Shown piece by piece: positions 6,624-17,260 of a DNA stretch of 20,452 nt (positions within the stretch are counted from its first letter, which is position 1; every line of letters begins with the position of its first letter). The stretch comes from a virus. Where the stretch lies: IMG/VR virus record IMGVR_UViG_3300026304_000010, positions 1 through 20,452 of that record, one strand, 5' to 3'. A model generated the notes under the pieces. It ran no database searches, was not told where the DNA came from, and saw only the letters and a list, made by a program, of their open reading frames with translations. The position numbers were made by a program, and so were the translations under genes.

Positions 6624-9600
6624 TGGGTACGTTAAGTGTTGCCATTAACAGCGTTCCCGTGCAAATCCTCGAAAACTCATTCCAGGAAAGTGACGCGATC
6701 AGCGCTGTATCCACCCTTATGTTCAAGGTGAAGGATGACTCAGGCTCAAACCACTACACCAAAGGCCAGCCCGTTTCGATTACTGATTCAGTCAACGGTG
6801 TGCAATACACCGGCTTTGTGAGCGCAGCCATAGAGGATCGAGTGAGCCCCAACACACTCATCATTACCGACATTGGTGTGCGCGATAATCACTATCTCGC
6901 CGAGAAGCGTACCTACGACGGGCCAGAGGCGCAAAACATCTATGCTGGCGTCATGTTCTGCCAGATGCTGAACACGCTTGCAAGTGAGGGCATCGTATCC
7001 AAATATGCGTTTGATCGGGACACGACCGCGACTGATTTCAATGCAGGCACGCTTACGGGCGTTGTGGGTGCATCCAATGTGGATGACGGCGATCTGGAAC
7101 TGGTGCCAGCAGGAACGAACGTCAGCCAAACCGACAGGACCACGGCTGACTTTGCCGCTAGCTCACAGTCTCTTAGCGTCGATGCACGCAATAATCAACT
7201 CAACCTGCACGCATACAACGTGATCAAGCTGACCGGAACATGTGCCATCAGCGGCAACAATGCGTTTCTCTACTGGAAGATTTGGAGTGGTTCGCAGGGC
7301 ATCATCGCCGGTAATTTCATCGAATACGATGTGTGGATATCGTCTTCGAGTCCATTGCAGCAGGCGGCGGTTGACCTGGTGTGTACTGATGGTACGACCA
7401 TGCGTGATTTCAACTCTCAAGGCATCGTTGATCAGATGGGCATGAAAGCGCATCCAGGCGGCGACCTTTCCGGCTTCGCAACGGACACCTGGTATCATCG
7501 CAAGATTGATATAGGCGGCCTGGCCGGCAAAACCGTTGCCTTTGTGGATATCGCGTTTGAGGGTGACAACGTTGGCAGCTACCAGGCGTATTTCAGGAAC
7601 GTGAAACTCACAGGAACCTCTAGCGCTACGTTCTATGACAGCACGACGCATCCCTACGACCCGCAAAACGCGCCACTTCAGACGAGCGCGCAAGTCTCCA
7701 ATCAAGGCTATGCCAATGTAAGCGTGCAGGTGATCACCGCCTATGACCAGTTTGGCTACCGCATCAGCGACACCATCAGCATTGACGCAGCCAAGGTGGT
7801 GAATTCCTCTCAAGTGTCCTGGTCCTCCGTCGTCCCAGCAGGCGTAACGCCTGCCTCTCAGGTGGCAGGGAATACCGGGCCACCTGTGCCAAATGGAACG
7901 ACGCTCACCATTTTGACAAGCATTGACACGGACGCAACGTGGCAGCCGGCTGTCTTCAATGCGCCTATTGCCGATTTAGCAGCGGGCTTCAATGTTGCGG
8001 GTCGCAGCCTCTACACACAAATCGTGCTGGCGATCACCGGCACCACGCCAGAGCAGACGCCGGCTGTTTCCACGCTGACCACACTCGTTACCACCGCCTA
8101 TGTCGCAGGCACCACGAACGCGCTGGCAAGCTATAAGAACAACACGGATTTCGCTACAGGCACCAATGGCAACACACAAAACTGGGGGCCTGCCATAACG
8201 CCAACGTTCGGAACCATTCACGGCAACGCTGCTATCACGCTGCTGGGCATGTTTTACGACTGGGATAAGCACTTCTTCCAGGATCAGCAGAACACCTCCT
8301 TTGAAACGCTCTTTGGCGCAACATCGCCAGCACAGGCCAACTTCAGGCACCAGCTAAAACTCACGACCGGGACCGGCACGGATGTGAAGTCGCGCTTAGA
8401 TAGCTTTGGCGGCGGCGGGAATAGCTTCCAGAATTTCACGGCGCAAGTCACCGTGCAAATACCACCGACCAGCGCAACCATCGGCCTTGTGTACCGCACG
8501 ACGGGGTGGGTGAATGCCAACAATACCTATGCCTACGCAGCGGATATCTCAACGACGGCTGTTCAACTTGGCCGAGGGACCAATGGGGGAGCATCGACAT
8601 TTACGCTGATTACCTCCACGGCAGTGACCTTAACGGCTGGCAACTGGTATACGCTCAAGATCGTGGTCAATGGCAATAACCACCAGGTGTTTGTGGACGA
8701 TGTGCAGTATATCAACGCAACCGATGCGACCTACCCGGCTACCGGCCAAATCGGATTGCATTTCTTTGACAATACCGGCTCGACACAAAGCGGCTTCTTC
8801 GAGAACTTTGGGGTGGTCGCCACCCTCACCGGCACGTGGATTTCGCCAGCGGTCAGCTTGAACGCGCTTACCACCATCGGGCAAAGCGCGGTCTTCTGGA
8901 ATGCCCTTGTGCCCGCTGGTGGGAGCCTGATTTGTGAATCCACCATCAACGGCGGCTCTACCTACCAGGCCGTTGCGCAAGGCGGGCAAATCGGCAACTT
9001 GCCCCCAGGCACAAGCACAGTTGGGGTGAGTGTGCAACTGCGTTTTACGTTCACCACGCCCAATGCGAGTGTGACGCCTGTGTTGCAAGCGGTGAGCGTT
9101 TGGGCGGTCAGTCAGGTAACGGCCTCAGGCAATCGCATATCCCCTGCGCTCTCCCTCACCAACGTCGGGCGTTTAGGCGGCTCGGTCGTGGCATGGAACA
9201 ACGTCGCGCTGGCCTCAGGTGCCACGCTCGGAGTGGATGCGCGTGTGGATGCGGGCTCGTGGGTAGATGTGACCGGCAGCAATGGCGGGGCTATTCCCGG
9301 CCTGACGGCGCAGCCCAATCCGACCAACGACAGCTTCACCAGTGATACGCACACGAACTATAGCAGCACGTTTGCGACCGGTGGCGCTGCTGTGACTTCA
9401 GCGACATTCGATACAGCCAATAGTCGCTTGCTGCTCACCGGCGGCACCAATGCGCTCTATATCAACAATCTGGCTACCGCTCTCGGAGATGTAGATTTCC
9501 TTGTGGACATAGACGAGTCGGATAACGGCGGCCTGGTGTGGCATTTCATCGACGGGAATAACTTCTATGACCTGATAGCCAGGGATGGTAGTAGTTCAGG

Positions 9601-12632: not shown

Positions 12633-14384
12633 TTGGCAATCATTGGAAGCGATAGCTTTTCGCGTGCCGATCAATCAGGCTGGGGGAATGCCTCGGACGG
12701 ACAAACATGGTCACAAGTCCAGGGCGCCGGCACGCTCGCTATCGCCTCTAATGAGGGCACATTTACCGGGCAAATCGCCACTGATGAGGTGATGGTGCTT
12801 GGGAGCACGAGCCAGGCCGATACCGATTGCCTGGTTCGCTTCAAAGTCACCAATTCTGGTAACGACGTGCCAGGTGTGGTGTTCCGCTCCAATGGCTCCA
12901 ACACGTTCTACCGTGTCAGAAATAATAGCGGCACACTCGGTATACGGCGCATCAATGCAGGGTCATCGACCACGGTAGGGGTTGATACAGCGGTAGCCAT
13001 GTCTGCCGGGACGTTCTACTGGATACGTGGTAAGATCGTCGGGTCTACCATCTATGCGACCATGTGGGCCGATGGAGGCTCCGAACCGGCGCCGCAAATC
13101 ACCGTAACAGACGGCACACCGATAAGCACGGCAGGCCGCTTTGGCATCTATGCCTCGATCAATACGACCGCGACCGATACGATCTTCTATGATCACTTTA
13201 CTGCGACCGATACAGTTGTAGCGGCACCCTCAACCTATCCGCGTTTTATCCCACGTGCGCTGGGCGCGACGATTATCCCGGTCATTGTCAGCCAACCGTT
13301 GCCGTATATCGACCGTGCATTAGGATCCACGATTATCTATGAGGACCGTACGTTCATCCCACGCGCACTAGGCGGGGTCTACATTCCTGATACCGTGATG
13401 TGGGTACCGCGCGGTCTTTCCAGCATAGTGCAGTCCTCGCTGTTACGTAGCCTCACCCTTGCCGGGGTAGGGACACTTTCGCCAACGCTTTCCGCAAACC
13501 TTGCGTTGCCCGCTACGACCCTCGCCGGCGTAGGGACACTCACCGGCACGCTTTCACTTAGTGCGGCGCTCACAGCAGAGTGCGACGGGGTAGGAACGCT
13601 GGCGGGCACGCTCTCAGCGAATACGGCGCTCTCGGCGCAGCTTGCGGGTGTGGCTACATGCTCTGCATTAAGCCTGCAAACGCAAGCGAGCCAGCCGCTT
13701 CCCTATATCGGGCGTGGGCTGCTCTCCACGATTGTCTACGAGGCGCGTGTATTCATCCCACGCGCTCTCAGCGCAACCTATATCCCTGACACGTCCATAT
13801 GGGTACCTCGTGCCCTTGATAGCGGCGCGATGCAGCTACAACCGCTTGCGGCCACACTGCCCGGAGTAGGGACGCTTGCGGGGACACTTTCGACAACAGG
13901 CGGCGTATCGCTCTCAGTCACGATGGCTGGAGTAGGGACGCTTGCGGGGACACTCCCACTCTCAACAGCGCTCTCCACGACTATGAGCGGGGTTGGCACG
14001 CTTACGGGAACGCTTAGCGCCTCCCTCACACTTCCATCGACATCACTTGTGGGAGTCGGGACACTTGCGGGCACACTCGTTCTTACAACGGCGCTCAGTC
14101 GAACGCTTACAGGAGTAGGGACGCTTACAGGTGTCTTCTCGCCACGGACAGCACTCTTCCTCACCTGCGCAGGTGTTGGCACGCTTGCGGGCAATCTCAG
14201 CATACCGTCAACATCCTACCTCACCGCTGTATGGGTGACACGCGATCTTGTCGCTACCTGGGTCACAAGGGATGGCAAAGTCACATGGGCAACGAGAGAT
14301 GAGAAGGCGGCATGGGCCGCTAGAGATGAGCAAGATACATGGGCAACGAGAGATGAACAGGCGTTATGGAAAACAAGGAGTTAA
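12633..14384 (+). CDS. Modular, repeat-rich tail fibre (583 aa)
   Basis: The start is a TTG with GGGGT as a likely SD. Residues 1-192 form a LamG/concanavalin-like beta domain ('DSFSRAD...GVVFRSNGSNTFYRVRN...GTFYWIRGKIVGSTIYATMW'), suited to carbohydrate binding. The rest is built from repeats. A 'QPLPYI.R.L.STI.YE.R.FIPRAL...YIPD...WVPR.L' block occurs at about 221-265 and again at 354-400. 'AGVGTLAGTLS' units of about 20 residues follow each block (four from residue 276, six from residue 409). Last comes a C-terminal array of 9-residue 'xxWxTRDxx' repeats (532-583). It is probably a trimeric fibre or receptor-binding shaft. The repeat regions may vary in length by recombination. Confidence 0.75.
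   Translation: MAIIGSDSFSRADQSGWGNASDGQTWSQVQGAGTLAIASNEGTFTGQIATDEVMVLGSTSQADTDCLVRFKVTNSGNDVPGVVFRSNGSNTFYRVRNNSGTLGIRRINAGSSTTVGVDTAVAMSAGTFYWIRGKIVGSTIYATMWADGGSEPAPQITVTDGTPISTAGRFGIYASINTTATDTIFYDHFTATDTVVAAPSTYPRFIPRALGATIIPVIVSQPLPYIDRALGSTIIYEDRTFIPRALGGVYIPDTVMWVPRGLSSIVQSSLLRSLTLAGVGTLSPTLSANLALPATTLAGVGTLTGTLSLSAALTAECDGVGTLAGTLSANTALSAQLAGVATCSALSLQTQASQPLPYIGRGLLSTIVYEARVFIPRALSATYIPDTSIWVPRALDSGAMQLQPLAATLPGVGTLAGTLSTTGGVSLSVTMAGVGTLAGTLPLSTALSTTMSGVGTLTGTLSASLTLPSTSLVGVGTLAGTLVLTTALSRTLTGVGTLTGVFSPRTALFLTCAGVGTLAGNLSIPSTSYLTAVWVTRDLVATWVTRDGKVTWATRDEKAAWAARDEQDTWATRDEQALWKTRS
13293..13856 (+). repeat. Duplicated PRAL block and first GVGTL repeat block in the fibre
   Basis: The first PRAL block begins at 13293 and its copy at 13692. 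Between them, from 13458, lie four GVGTL-type units about 60 bp apart; the fourth has decayed (GVATCSAL). The module duplication is visible in protein and partly in DNA. Confidence 0.75.
13857..14225 (+). repeat. Second GVGTL repeat block (six units)
   Basis: Six units of 60-69 bp begin at 13857; the last begins at 14166. Two neighbouring units share identical DNA over roughly 27 bp around GGAGTAGGGACGCTTGCGGG, which points to recent expansion by recombination or slippage. Confidence 0.75.
14226..14381 (+). repeat. 27-bp repeats coding nonapeptides xxWxTRDxx
   Basis: Five full units and one partial unit of 9 residues each carry a Trp and a T/A-R-D motif. The most similar units share ATGGGCAACGAGAGATGA. 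They form the extreme C-terminus of the fibre. Confidence 0.8.
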
Positions 14385-14726: not shown

Positions 14727-14743
14727 AAAGGAAGGAGGTATCT

Positions 14744-15745
14744 ATGTCAATTGTTGATCCGCCTATGGTCAACAAGCTGATGCTTGTGCCTGAACAAAAT
14801 ACGTTCATAGGATCACAGCCCGGTTCTGCGCTTGTGATCCACAAGACGGCATCAGGGACGAGCGCCGAGGCTGTCGCAAACTTCTTTACCAATGACCCCA
14901 ACGGGTCATCAAGTCATTTCGTGATTGGACAAGATGGCGAAATTGTCCAGTGTGTGCATCTTGTTGATGGAGCCGGGGCCAATTGTTGTGTCGAAAACGG
15001 GTTCGATCCGTATTGGCAACAATTTAACCCGATGCATGTAGGATCATCGACAGGGACAAACCTCAATACGATCACTGTTTCTATTGAGCACTGTGACCCT
15101 GCTTCAGATAACAGCACGCCATTGACTAGCGCACAAAAGGCATCGTCTTTCAAGCTGGTCAAATGGCTTGTCGATCAGTATGGTTTTGATATCACGCCCG
15201 ATGGGCACGGGCAGATGGTTGATATTAAGGGGCACAACACGATAGACCCGATCAATCGCGCTCGTTGCCCTGGCAATTATCCGTGGGCTGAATTACAGAC
15301 CTACTTACAAGGAGGTGGAACTATGGGAGTACCGACAGGATGGCATGACGACGGAACGACACTGACCGCACCCAATGGACATAAAGTGGTGCATGGCTTT
15401 CGTGCGAAAGTACTGGCAGGATGGGATGCGGCTGATGTACCGCTCGAAGAAGAGCATCAGGTAGCGCATGTGGAGAACTACTACGCATCTGATGCGGGGG
15501 CTATCCAGACCTTCAGATTCGCACGCCTCTGCTATACCGCAGCGCGGGGCGTGTACAAGATGGGCATCGGCAACGAACTGCTCGGATGCGAGAAAGCGCT
15601 AGCCGCCTGTAAAGCAACGGCCGTGACTACCGTGCAAGGTGTGGATCCTGCCGCTGTCAAGGCATTTGAGGCGCAGGTGAGCATGCAGGCGCATCAGATT
15701 GTCATCGCGGCTCAGACGTTGGAGGGCCTGACGGTTCCGTTGTAG
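14744..15745 (+). CDS. Endolysin, N-acetylmuramoyl-L-alanine amidase (333 aa)
   Basis: Residues about 25-190 form an Amidase_2 domain, which cuts the bond between N-acetylmuramic acid and L-alanine in peptidoglycan. Likely zinc ligands are His33 ('VIHKT'), His164 ('KGHNTIDP') and Cys175 ('RARCPGNYP'). Other landmarks are 'SSHFVIGQDGEIVQ' with His58 and 'VSIEHCD' with Glu115. After a Gly-rich linker (190-193) the C-terminal part (194-333) begins 'GWHDDGTTLTAPNGHKVVHGF', likely a cell-wall-binding domain, and ends in a helical tail. No signal peptide is seen, so release needs a holin; a candidate is at 16570. The SD GGAAGGAGG is very strong. The gene's last 44 bp overlap an antisense gene. Confidence 0.9.
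   Translation: MSIVDPPMVNKLMLVPEQNTFIGSQPGSALVIHKTASGTSAEAVANFFTNDPNGSSSHFVIGQDGEIVQCVHLVDGAGANCCVENGFDPYWQQFNPMHVGSSTGTNLNTITVSIEHCDPASDNSTPLTSAQKASSFKLVKWLVDQYGFDITPDGHGQMVDIKGHNTIDPINRARCPGNYPWAELQTYLQGGGTMGVPTGWHDDGTTLTAPNGHKVVHGFRAKVLAGWDAADVPLEEEHQVAHVENYYASDAGAIQTFRFARLCYTAARGVYKMGIGNELLGCEKALAACKATAVTTVQGVDPAAVKAFEAQVSMQAHQIVIAAQTLEGLTVPL
15309..15316 (+). promoter_or_regulatory. Internal perfect ribosome-binding site in endolysin
   Basis: AAGGAGGT, fully complementary to the 3' end of bacterial 16S rRNA, lies 6 nt before an in-frame ATG (15323-15325, residue Met194), exactly at the domain border. It codes for the linker (Q-G-G), so the sequence does double duty. Confidence 0.75.
15323..15745 (+). 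CDS. Probable separate C-terminal endolysin domain (140 aa, internal start)
   Basis: Initiation at Met194 would give a 140-aa protein with only the 'TAPNGHKVVHGF' wall-binding-like domain and helical tail, lacking all amidase residues. Several known endolysins of Gram-positive phages (for example CD27L, CTP1L and enterococcal LysIME-EF1) make their binding domain this way, and it then assembles with full-length enzyme. Here the evidence is the perfect SD, the optimal spacing, the start in frame and the location at the domain linker. Not experimentally shown. Confidence 0.6.
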   Translation: MGVPTGWHDDGTTLTAPNGHKVVHGFRAKVLAGWDAADVPLEEEHQVAHVENYYASDAGAIQTFRFARLCYTAARGVYKMGIGNELLGCEKALAACKATAVTTVQGVDPAAVKAFEAQVSMQAHQIVIAAQTLEGLTVPL

Positions 15746-16007
15746 GCCATTCAGTGAGGTCGGGGATATGGGAGATAGGGTTATCCTCATCTTCTGTTAT
15801 CTCTGCCTTTGCTACTTCATAGGTGTATGGCTCAAAGTCATGGAGACTCAGGTTCTCGATGATATGCACAGCCAGGTCGTAGGCACGCTGGGCGATGATG
15901 TCTTCAGGCTCACGAATCAAATCATGCAGAGCCGTTTGCAGTTCTGACCAGAGCAGTCTAGCAAAGCCCTGGAAGTGTTCGTTTCGTTCTCGTTCGTTCT
16001 TATCCAT
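15702..16007 (-). CDS. Unknown acidic protein on the minus strand (101 aa)
   Basis: I chose the ATG at 16007. It gives a hydrophilic protein: an N-terminal helical region ('NEHFQGFARLLWSELQTALHDLI'), a middle helix and an acidic, proline-rich tail. There is no SD; TATAAT ends 7 bp before the ATG, so the mRNA may be leaderless. An in-frame start at 16049 would add 14 hydrophobic residues but would lie within the upstream terminator and upstream of the promoter. The 3' end overlaps the endolysin gene by 44 bp in antisense. No family recognised. Confidence 0.65.
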   Translation of the reverse strand: MDKNERERNEHFQGFARLLWSELQTALHDLIREPEDIIAQRAYDLAVHIIENLSLHDFEPYTYEVAKAEITEDEDNPISHIPDLTEWPTTEPSGPPTSEPR

Positions 16008-16010
16008 AGA

Positions 16011-16022
16011 AAGGATTATACC
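16011..16022 (-). promoter_or_regulatory. Extended -10 promoter (TGGTATAAT), probable leaderless start
   Basis: On the minus strand TGGTATAAT lies directly ahead of CCTTTCT and the ATG. The expected transcription start falls at or beside the A of the ATG. No good -35 is seen at 16-18 bp; the TG dinucleotide one base before TATAAT would compensate. Confidence 0.6.
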
Positions 16023-16026
16023 ATGC

Positions 16027-16060
16027 AAAACAACAAAAACGCCTCTCAACTCGGAGAGGC
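16027..16060 (-). terminator. Rho-independent terminator of the 134-aa gene
   Basis: On the minus strand a perfect 7-bp stem GCCTCTC/GAGAGGC with a 6-nt loop (16041-16060) is followed by GTTTTTGTTGTTTT. The hairpin overlaps the stop codon of the 134-aa gene and separates its transcript from the next promoter. Confidence 0.8.
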
Positions 16061-16507: not shown

Positions 16508-16537
16508 AGTATACACTGTCATGATATATCATGTCAA
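16508..16537 (-). promoter_or_regulatory. Strong sigma70-type promoter for the 134-aa gene
   Basis: On the minus strand TTGACA (16532-16537) and TATACT (16508-16513) are separated by 18 bp, near consensus. The expected transcription start is near 16501, about 50 nt before the ATG. A palindromic operator covers the spacer. Confidence 0.75.
16518..16535. promoter_or_regulatory. Palindromic operator site 2 in the promoter spacer
   Basis: GTCATG-ATATAT-CATGTC contains a perfect 14-bp palindrome (16520-16533) that fills most of the gap between -10 and -35. CACT/AGTG arms outside it (16514-16517, 16537-16540) extend the dyad with one bulge. It shares the GTCATG-N6-CATG core with site 1, 37 bp away. 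Confidence 0.65.
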
Positions 16538-16569
16538 GTGTTTTGGCTATCAATTTAGGAGAACTTATC

Positions 16570-16872
16570 ATGAACAACAACAATCCACTCACAGAAATCA
16601 GCCTGCTCGTTTTGAGCGTTGCCATGCTGGCAGCCATGACGGTCTTGCTTGTCTTCGGCATAATCACGTATACCGAGGCGCTGAACTTTTTGATTATCGT
16701 CGCCGGGCTGTTCGGGGTGAACGTGGCAGCAAAGGCCCCTTCGCCTGCACAGCAACAACAACTTCAGCAACTCACACAGCAGGCGCTCTCGGTGCTGCCC
16801 ACGGTGGTAGCGGCTACCCAACAGCCTGCACCGACGCCACCACCGGCGGCCGTGCCACCAGAGACGAAATAG
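16570..16872 (+). CDS. Putative holin, two membrane helices (100 aa)
   Basis: TTAGGAGAA gives a good SD. After a short polar N-terminus there are two hydrophobic helices (about residues 9-31 and 37-55) joined by a short turn ('TYTEA'). A Gln-rich segment and a Pro-rich hydrophilic tail follow. The size, the two-helix layout and the closeness to the endolysin support a holin that opens the membrane for the amidase. It is separated from the endolysin by two leftward genes, so its promoter must lie in 16451-16569 or transcription must read through. Other membrane functions are possible. Confidence 0.6.
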   Translation: MNNNNPLTEISLLVLSVAMLAAMTVLLVFGIITYTEALNFLIIVAGLFGVNVAAKAPSPAQQQQLQQLTQQALSVLPTVVAATQQPAPTPPPAAVPPETK

Positions 16873-16906: not shown

Positions 16907-17260
16907 ATGAGCAACAACGACGCACAGATAGCTGACAGCCCAAATTATCGTCGAGCCTGGAATGACCTGCGGCGGATGTGGGCAGATCATCCATTGGTTC
17001 AGGCGCTCTCTAATAAGCCTGGAGATAAAACGGAAAGGAGGGCAGCGAGTATGGCAATACTACCCGAGGGCGATTTTCATTACCTCCACCTACCACCGGA
17101 AAAGGTGAAGTACACGCCGCCGATTGTGGATGACGCGGGCATAGACATCTACAACCGCGTGCCGGACAAGTTGAAGCAGGAGATACGCGACAACATCTGG
17201 AAGTACCTCGAGCAGGTGCAGCGCGATTATCCGCCTGAGCCACGAGCGGAGGGCGCATGA
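16907..17260 (+). CDS. Unknown protein with AWxxL...HPLVQ motif (117 aa)
   Basis: GGGAGG lies only 3 nt before this ATG. Residues 17-34 carry 'AWNDLRRMWADHPLVQAL', a motif repeated in the 240-aa protein encoded at 17583. A second, better spaced SD (AAGGAGG at 17035-17041) precedes an in-frame ATG at 17051 (Met49), so a 69-aa product may also be made. The C-terminal part has a basic helix ('VPDKLKQEIRDNIWKYLEQVQRDY'). The stop overlaps the next start (ATGA). Function not recognised. Confidence 0.65.
   Translation: MSNNDAQIADSPNYRRAWNDLRRMWADHPLVQALSNKPGDKTERRAASMAILPEGDFHYLHLPPEKVKYTPPIVDDAGIDIYNRVPDKLKQEIRDNIWKYLEQVQRDYPPEPRAEGA

Follow-up and report, generated by a model that had tools for sequence, protein, structure and literature searches.

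Does the endolysin gene of this soil phage encode its C-terminal domain twice, once as part of the full-length enzyme and once as a separate product translated from a start codon inside the gene? The gene lies in a stretch of 20,452 bases that makes up a complete IMG/VR record of the fragment class (hereafter, the window). To answer the question we considered, in turn, the layout of the gene and the strength of its internal start, the fate of that start among relatives of the C-terminal domain, the predicted fold of the domain, and the dual-start endolysins already described.

Gene layout and the internal start

The endolysin is a single gene, in which an N-terminal Amidase_2 domain is followed by a 140-residue C-terminal domain without a catalytic match (Table 1). 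The Amidase_2 profile (PF01510) scored 76.1 bits against a curated cut-off of 26, and residues His33, His164 and Cys175, which from family knowledge we take to be the candidate zinc ligands, are unchanged across the 9 relatives in which these residues were compared. A first-pass annotation of this DNA had placed a Shine-Dalgarno (SD) sequence 6 nt before an in-frame ATG (Met194), at the Gly-rich linker between the two domains. This placement was borne out, as the SD AAGGAGGT occupies positions 15309-15316, the spacer GGAACT (15317-15322) separates it from the ATG at 15323, and residue 178 is the last one in the Amidase_2 match. Confidence in the full-length model is low (mean pLDDT 62.8), and we used it for the position of the linker only; it puts the linker region in a coil (residues 190-200) that follows the last amidase helix (residues 181-189).

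Table 1. Features of the endolysin locus, in window coordinates.
Feature	Position	Strand	Basis or remark
SD of the full-length endolysin, AAGGAGG	14732..14738	+	7 nt before ATG 14744; anti-SD pairing -13.0 kcal/mol
Endolysin gene, long product	14744..15745	+	ORF, 333 aa, 35.4 kDa
Amidase_2 catalytic domain	14822..15277	+	Pfam match, residues 27-178, E 4e-21
Gly-rich linker LQGGGT, from Leu188 (codon 15305-15307)	15305..15322	+	Sequence
Internal SD AAGGAGGT	15309..15316	+	Anti-SD pairing -12.7 kcal/mol
Internal start codon ATG (Met194, codon 194)	15323..15325	+	In frame; directly after linker LQGGGT
Second frame, predicted free C-terminal product	15323..15745	+	140 aa, 14.8 kDa; common stop with endolysin
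Globular core of C-terminal domain, mixed, residues 1-82	15323..15568	+	AlphaFold2; LGFP-like fold suggested
Two C-terminal helices, residues 84-105 and 109-134	15572..15724	+	AlphaFold2 model
Candidate holin, two hydrophobic stretches	16570..16872	+	Weak holin matches; adjoins endolysin in relatives too

The pairing of the internal SD with the anti-SD sequence is exceptional on several counts: (i) at -12.7 kcal/mol it is the best of the 17 in-frame internal starts in the endolysin gene, the next reaching -7.4; (ii) set against the 25 ORF starts scored in the window, it is second only to the endolysin's own start, which has the top pairing of all; and (iii) none of the other 1,624 internal in-frame start codons in the 16 loci analyzed matches it. 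For the pattern AAGGAGG-N4-9-ATG the window has five sites where 0.31 would be expected; three lie upstream of called ORF starts, and the other two are the endolysin site and an internal in-frame ATG at 17051.

A Gly-rich linker could nevertheless mimic such a signal, its GGA GGT codons resembling an SD and a Met happening to lie downstream. Gly-Gly linkers do readily yield GGAGG, and another strong in-frame internal site, at the ATG 17051 (-12.1 kcal/mol), occurs in an unrelated ORF of the window. Because a Gly-Gly linker by itself tends toward GGAGG, the pairing had to be judged against synonymous-codon redraws in which the linker protein was kept fixed. Redrawn codons averaged -9.3 kcal/mol, weaker than the observed -12.7 kcal/mol (P = 0.027 for the window), and the excess was clearer when 12 lineages were combined (P = 0.0011). 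GGA accounts for 18% of Gly codons, yet it is the first codon of the Gly pair in nearly all Gly-Gly linkers. Moreover, about 5% of the in-frame codons of the 16 genes compared are start codons, yet 15 of these genes have one at the junction. Coincidence is thus very improbable: the internal start surpasses chance, and its SD is stronger than the linker protein needs. Taken by itself, DNA invariance around the site is no more than mildly unusual among the three closest genes (P 0.023), so the argument relies on the wider set. An RNA-folding check of the start region gave no consistent accessibility and was left out of the argument.

The internal site at 17035-17053 (AAGGAGGGCAGCGAGTATG) falls at codon 49 of ORF 16907-17260; it may be fortuitous, may point to a misplaced gene start, or may itself be a further internal start.

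Conservation of the junction start beside different catalytic halves

Domain searches recovered 15 IMG/VR relatives of the C-terminal domain, giving 16 members with the window, from uncultured and mostly unclassified phages. In profile searches the N-terminal half matched Amidase_2 in 9 of the 16 (the window counted), while the remaining members carry an Rv2525c-like hydrolase (L133), a GH25 domain (L140), a C39-like domain (L138 and L142), an SLT domain (L003), or a half without a match (L136 and L144). The start codon at the junction is ATG in 13 members, GTG in L144 and TTG in L142; L138, whose N-terminal half is C39-like, has the domain and no junction start codon. In 14 of the 16 genes the junction site outranks every other internal start. 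Its anti-SD pairing is -8.5 or better in 13 of the 15 junction starts, a value that about 1.2% of background sites reach, and the other two SDs are moderate (-6.4 in L136 and -6.0 in L140).

An SD-like stretch that sits exactly at a domain junction might instead slow elongation between the domains and so aid folding, rather than serve as a start site. Pausing, however, needs no start codon at a set distance, yet in nearly all relatives ATG, GTG or TTG lies 4-11 nt from the SD, which leaves this reading hardly credible. The distance from the start to the domain core varies (M-GVP, M-VP, M-IP, MST-VP and MTT-IP), and the residue that the long protein carries at this position is Met, Leu or Val among relatives. 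Both features fit an initiator codon and not a structural residue.

The closest comparison is offered by L004 and L125, the only two matches in a scan with the linker pattern, which share the amidase, the linker and the start of the domain with the window. The first-pass annotation had proposed to look for genes with the same linker that lack both the SD and the Met; these two identical-linker genes retain both, keeping TACAAGGAGGTGGAAC[TG]ATGGGAGTACCGACAGG besides silent changes. A loose DNA pattern scan gave only chance matches apart from the known contig.

Our analysis also indicates that the catalytic half has been exchanged around this domain. In a tree of the C-terminal domain, the amidase-borne domain of L139 pairs with the GH25-borne domain of L140 (support 98/98), and the window groups with L141 (amidase) and L142 (C39-like; support 92/90); beyond these two groups the tree is mostly unresolved, and the exact number of catalytic exchanges was left uncounted. 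The domain attached to the Rv2525c-like half of L133 is 74-81% identical to amidase-borne domains. The endolysin of the window is itself a mosaic, its amidase and linker being nearest to L004 and L125 and its domain core nearest to L141 (62%). Beside unrelated catalytic halves the start remains strong (Rv2525c-like in L133, C39-like in L142, SLT in L003) or has a moderate SD (GH25 in L140). This persistence of the start through catalytic exchange is new.

Exchange of a domain among unrelated catalytic halves at the same boundary would also suit an unused relic, in which the SD and ATG are left over from a once-separate domain gene or mark a recombination seam, and internal starts have been discussed as products of fusion (PMC12203907). 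The reading frame is open across both halves in all 16 members, so none of them is a separate C-terminal domain gene. In addition, an unused relic should decay, whereas diverged lineages with other linkers retain an SD of full strength, and silent codons favor it, which makes a relic improbable. The internal start that the first-pass annotation had put forward is strongly supported by pairing strength, by silent-site choice and by conservation through swaps of the catalytic half, and on these sequence features we predict that the 14.8-kDa short product is very likely to be made.

Several observations on the surrounding sequence deserve mention. The C-terminal domain of the window (15323-15745) has a mosaic character of its own, with first residues like those of L004 and L125, a core like that of L141, and a tail shorter than most. 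The 3' end of the endolysin gene overlaps by 44 nt the 3' end of a convergent minus-strand gene (15702-16049), which has no Pfam match and is conserved in L004, L125, L131, L133 and L134 (ERNEHFxxFAxLLWxEL ... RAYDL ... IPDLxEWP). For the candidate holin (ORF 16531-16872), the alignment of relatives favors a start at 16570 (MNNNNPLTEI) over the first ATG at 16531, which has no SD. In L125, positions 7240-7420 hold an additional, truncated copy of the endolysin start (PIIDPPMVN...). Next come about 150 bases that include a hairpin and a minus-strand stretch resembling a tRNA T-arm, and after them the intact gene, which has an SD of its own; neither ARAGORN nor Rfam gave a match in this extra stretch. 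Finally, a tail-like protein (12633-14384 in the window, 4377-6116 in L125, 1753-3453 in L133) has a common N-terminal part and differing internal repeats, of AGVGTLAGTLS type in the window and L134 and of DIATRFRL type in L125, L131 and L133.

The C-terminal domain and the predicted complex

The first-pass annotation had remarked that the C-terminal domain was not one familiar from dual-start endolysins. This holds, as Pfam, NCBIfam and PHROGs offer no convincing match for any of the 16 members, and the domain family is new. The Pfam families HCBP_related, DivIC and FlxA were considered and rejected, as they scored below cut-off, the latter two reflecting the helical tail. A sequence search of solved structures with the domain returned only weak coiled-coil-like matches. 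An AlphaFold2 model of the 140 residues (mean pLDDT 84.8) folds as a unit from residue 1. Most relatives have a heptad-patterned tail, clear in several of them; it is weaker and shorter in the window.

The best structural match to this model is the LGFP domain of Corynebacterium glutamicum mycoloyltransferase A (6swz, identified as LGFP from sequence), with a Foldseek E of 0.19 and, in VIA-align, a Z of 6.6 over 70 residues at 2.0 A, the next unrelated row reaching 3.4. The top viral structural matches include Rhodococcus and Gordonia phage amidases whose kin carry LGFP repeats, and an hhalign comparison of the domain profile with 17 LGFP units gave E 0.007, a value that none of 100 column shuffles reached, the largest coming close. 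The LGFP sequence profile (PF08310), on the other hand, found no match at E 0.1 in the 16 members, and filing the domain as LGFP was therefore rejected. What the model suggests is an LGFP-like wall-binding fold for the core, a resemblance of fold and not a claim of membership. In the literature on lysins, the role of LGFP repeats as wall anchors is itself no more than a proposal (PMC3314691). Across eight actinophage LGFP lysins, strong internal starts were not consistently present in the stretch checked, so the internal-start arrangement does not follow from a similar fold. Judging from its position in the protein and this weak fold match, the C-terminal domain is likely to bind the host wall.

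As for the host, no relatives of the C-terminal domain were found in genome contigs scanned with it, nor was the domain found in plasmids and annotated phages or the amidase in plasmids. A tail protein resembles proteins of Streptomyces phages at about 30%, a level too weak for a host to be assigned.

Endolysins whose short product is the binding domain alone are defined as Type II iTSS endolysins (PMC12203907), and we conclude that this gene is probably one of them, with the long enzyme and the free domain joined in a complex with multiple binding domains. Ribosomes starting at ATG 14744 would make the amidase with its C-terminal domain (35.4 kDa), and independent initiation at ATG 15323, directed by the internal SD, would yield only the C-terminal domain (14.8 kDa). 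This free domain would then join the full enzyme, probably by domain-domain contacts and by the C-terminal helices. The resulting complex would combine one catalytic domain, or a few, with several that bind the wall, and would thereby gain avidity for the host wall during lysis. Mechanisms of this kind are known. For the assembly step itself, which we infer by analogy, the balance is moderately in favor, and the modeled helical tails suggest assembly or self-association.

A different outcome of the same internal start is that the short product acts alone, for instance by competing for wall sites, by coating them, or by tuning the timing of lysis. The self-contained fold of the modeled domain would allow this, the phi2638A short isoform chiefly affects release timing (PMC12203907), and in two proven dual-start endolysins, both of the other type, interaction of the two products was not seen, or not clearly (PMC9430671). 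Nevertheless, proven short products that consist of the binding domain only do interact, where tested in the cited work (PMC9430671), and the helical, often heptad-patterned tails of most relatives suggest self-association; a product acting alone is therefore unlikely, though less so than the other alternatives. Extending the preferred reading, the multi-binding-domain complex, we tentatively raise a broader possibility: the internal ribosome-binding site, the start and the unclassified wall-binding domain may form one mobile translational module, which has retained its own start as it joined four or more unrelated catalytic halves, and which builds multimeric lysins through its helical tail and not through a ring of binding cores.

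These results widen the range of dual-start endolysins: the phages concerned are uncultured and for the most part unclassified, and their binding domain belongs to a family outside Pfam, NCBIfam and PHROGs. The 16-member set bears on the debate whether internal starts are fusion relics or selected, as the start and its silent-site bias are kept while the catalytic half changes and the start codon varies between ATG, GTG and TTG. Should the short product be made, work that expresses only the annotated full-length protein would overlook the active form of many metagenomic lysins.

Comparison with known dual-start endolysins

The parallel with dual-start endolysins drawn in the first-pass annotation is correct, and the kind is well documented (PMC9430671, PMC7098653, PMC12203907). 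Internal starts are predicted for about half of the endolysins of Gram-positive phages, and the 15% obtained among portal genes shows the false-positive rate of that prediction (PMC9430671). Type II endolysins are known from enterococcal, clostridial and streptococcal phages (PMC7098653, PMC9430671), and in proven dual-start complexes the extra binding domains are required for full activity (PMC7098653, PMC9430671).

The nearest counterparts are the enterococcal LysIME-EF1 and Lys170, which likewise have one catalytic domain, an in-frame internal SD and ATG at the domain junction, and a short product that is the binding domain only. LysIME-EF1 assembles as one full enzyme with three extra binding domains, and 36 relatives share its internal AAGGAGA and Met (PMC7098653), much as the SD and Met are kept in most relatives here. 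In LysIME-EF1 and Lys170, however, the binding domain is about 8 kDa and forms a tetrameric ring, whereas the present one is predicted from sequence to be a domain of 140 residues with a helical tail, and it matches no known family. The genes of the clostridial CTP1L, CS74L and CD27L and the streptococcal LysP7951 are arranged likewise, the short product being the binding domain; their binding domains differ from the present one, and their complexes have ratios of 2:2 and 1:5 (PMC9430671).

The Type I iTSS endolysins Ms6 LysA and phi2638A also use an in-frame internal start to produce a C-terminal isoform (PMC3314691, PMC12203907), but their short product retains a catalytic domain and that of the window has none. 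Lastly, among the LGFP lysins of Gordonia and Rhodococcus phages, several share the layout of an amidase followed by a C-terminal domain, and a similar core fold is suggested; these lysins carry tandem repeats, whereas the domain of the window consists of one core with a helical tail.
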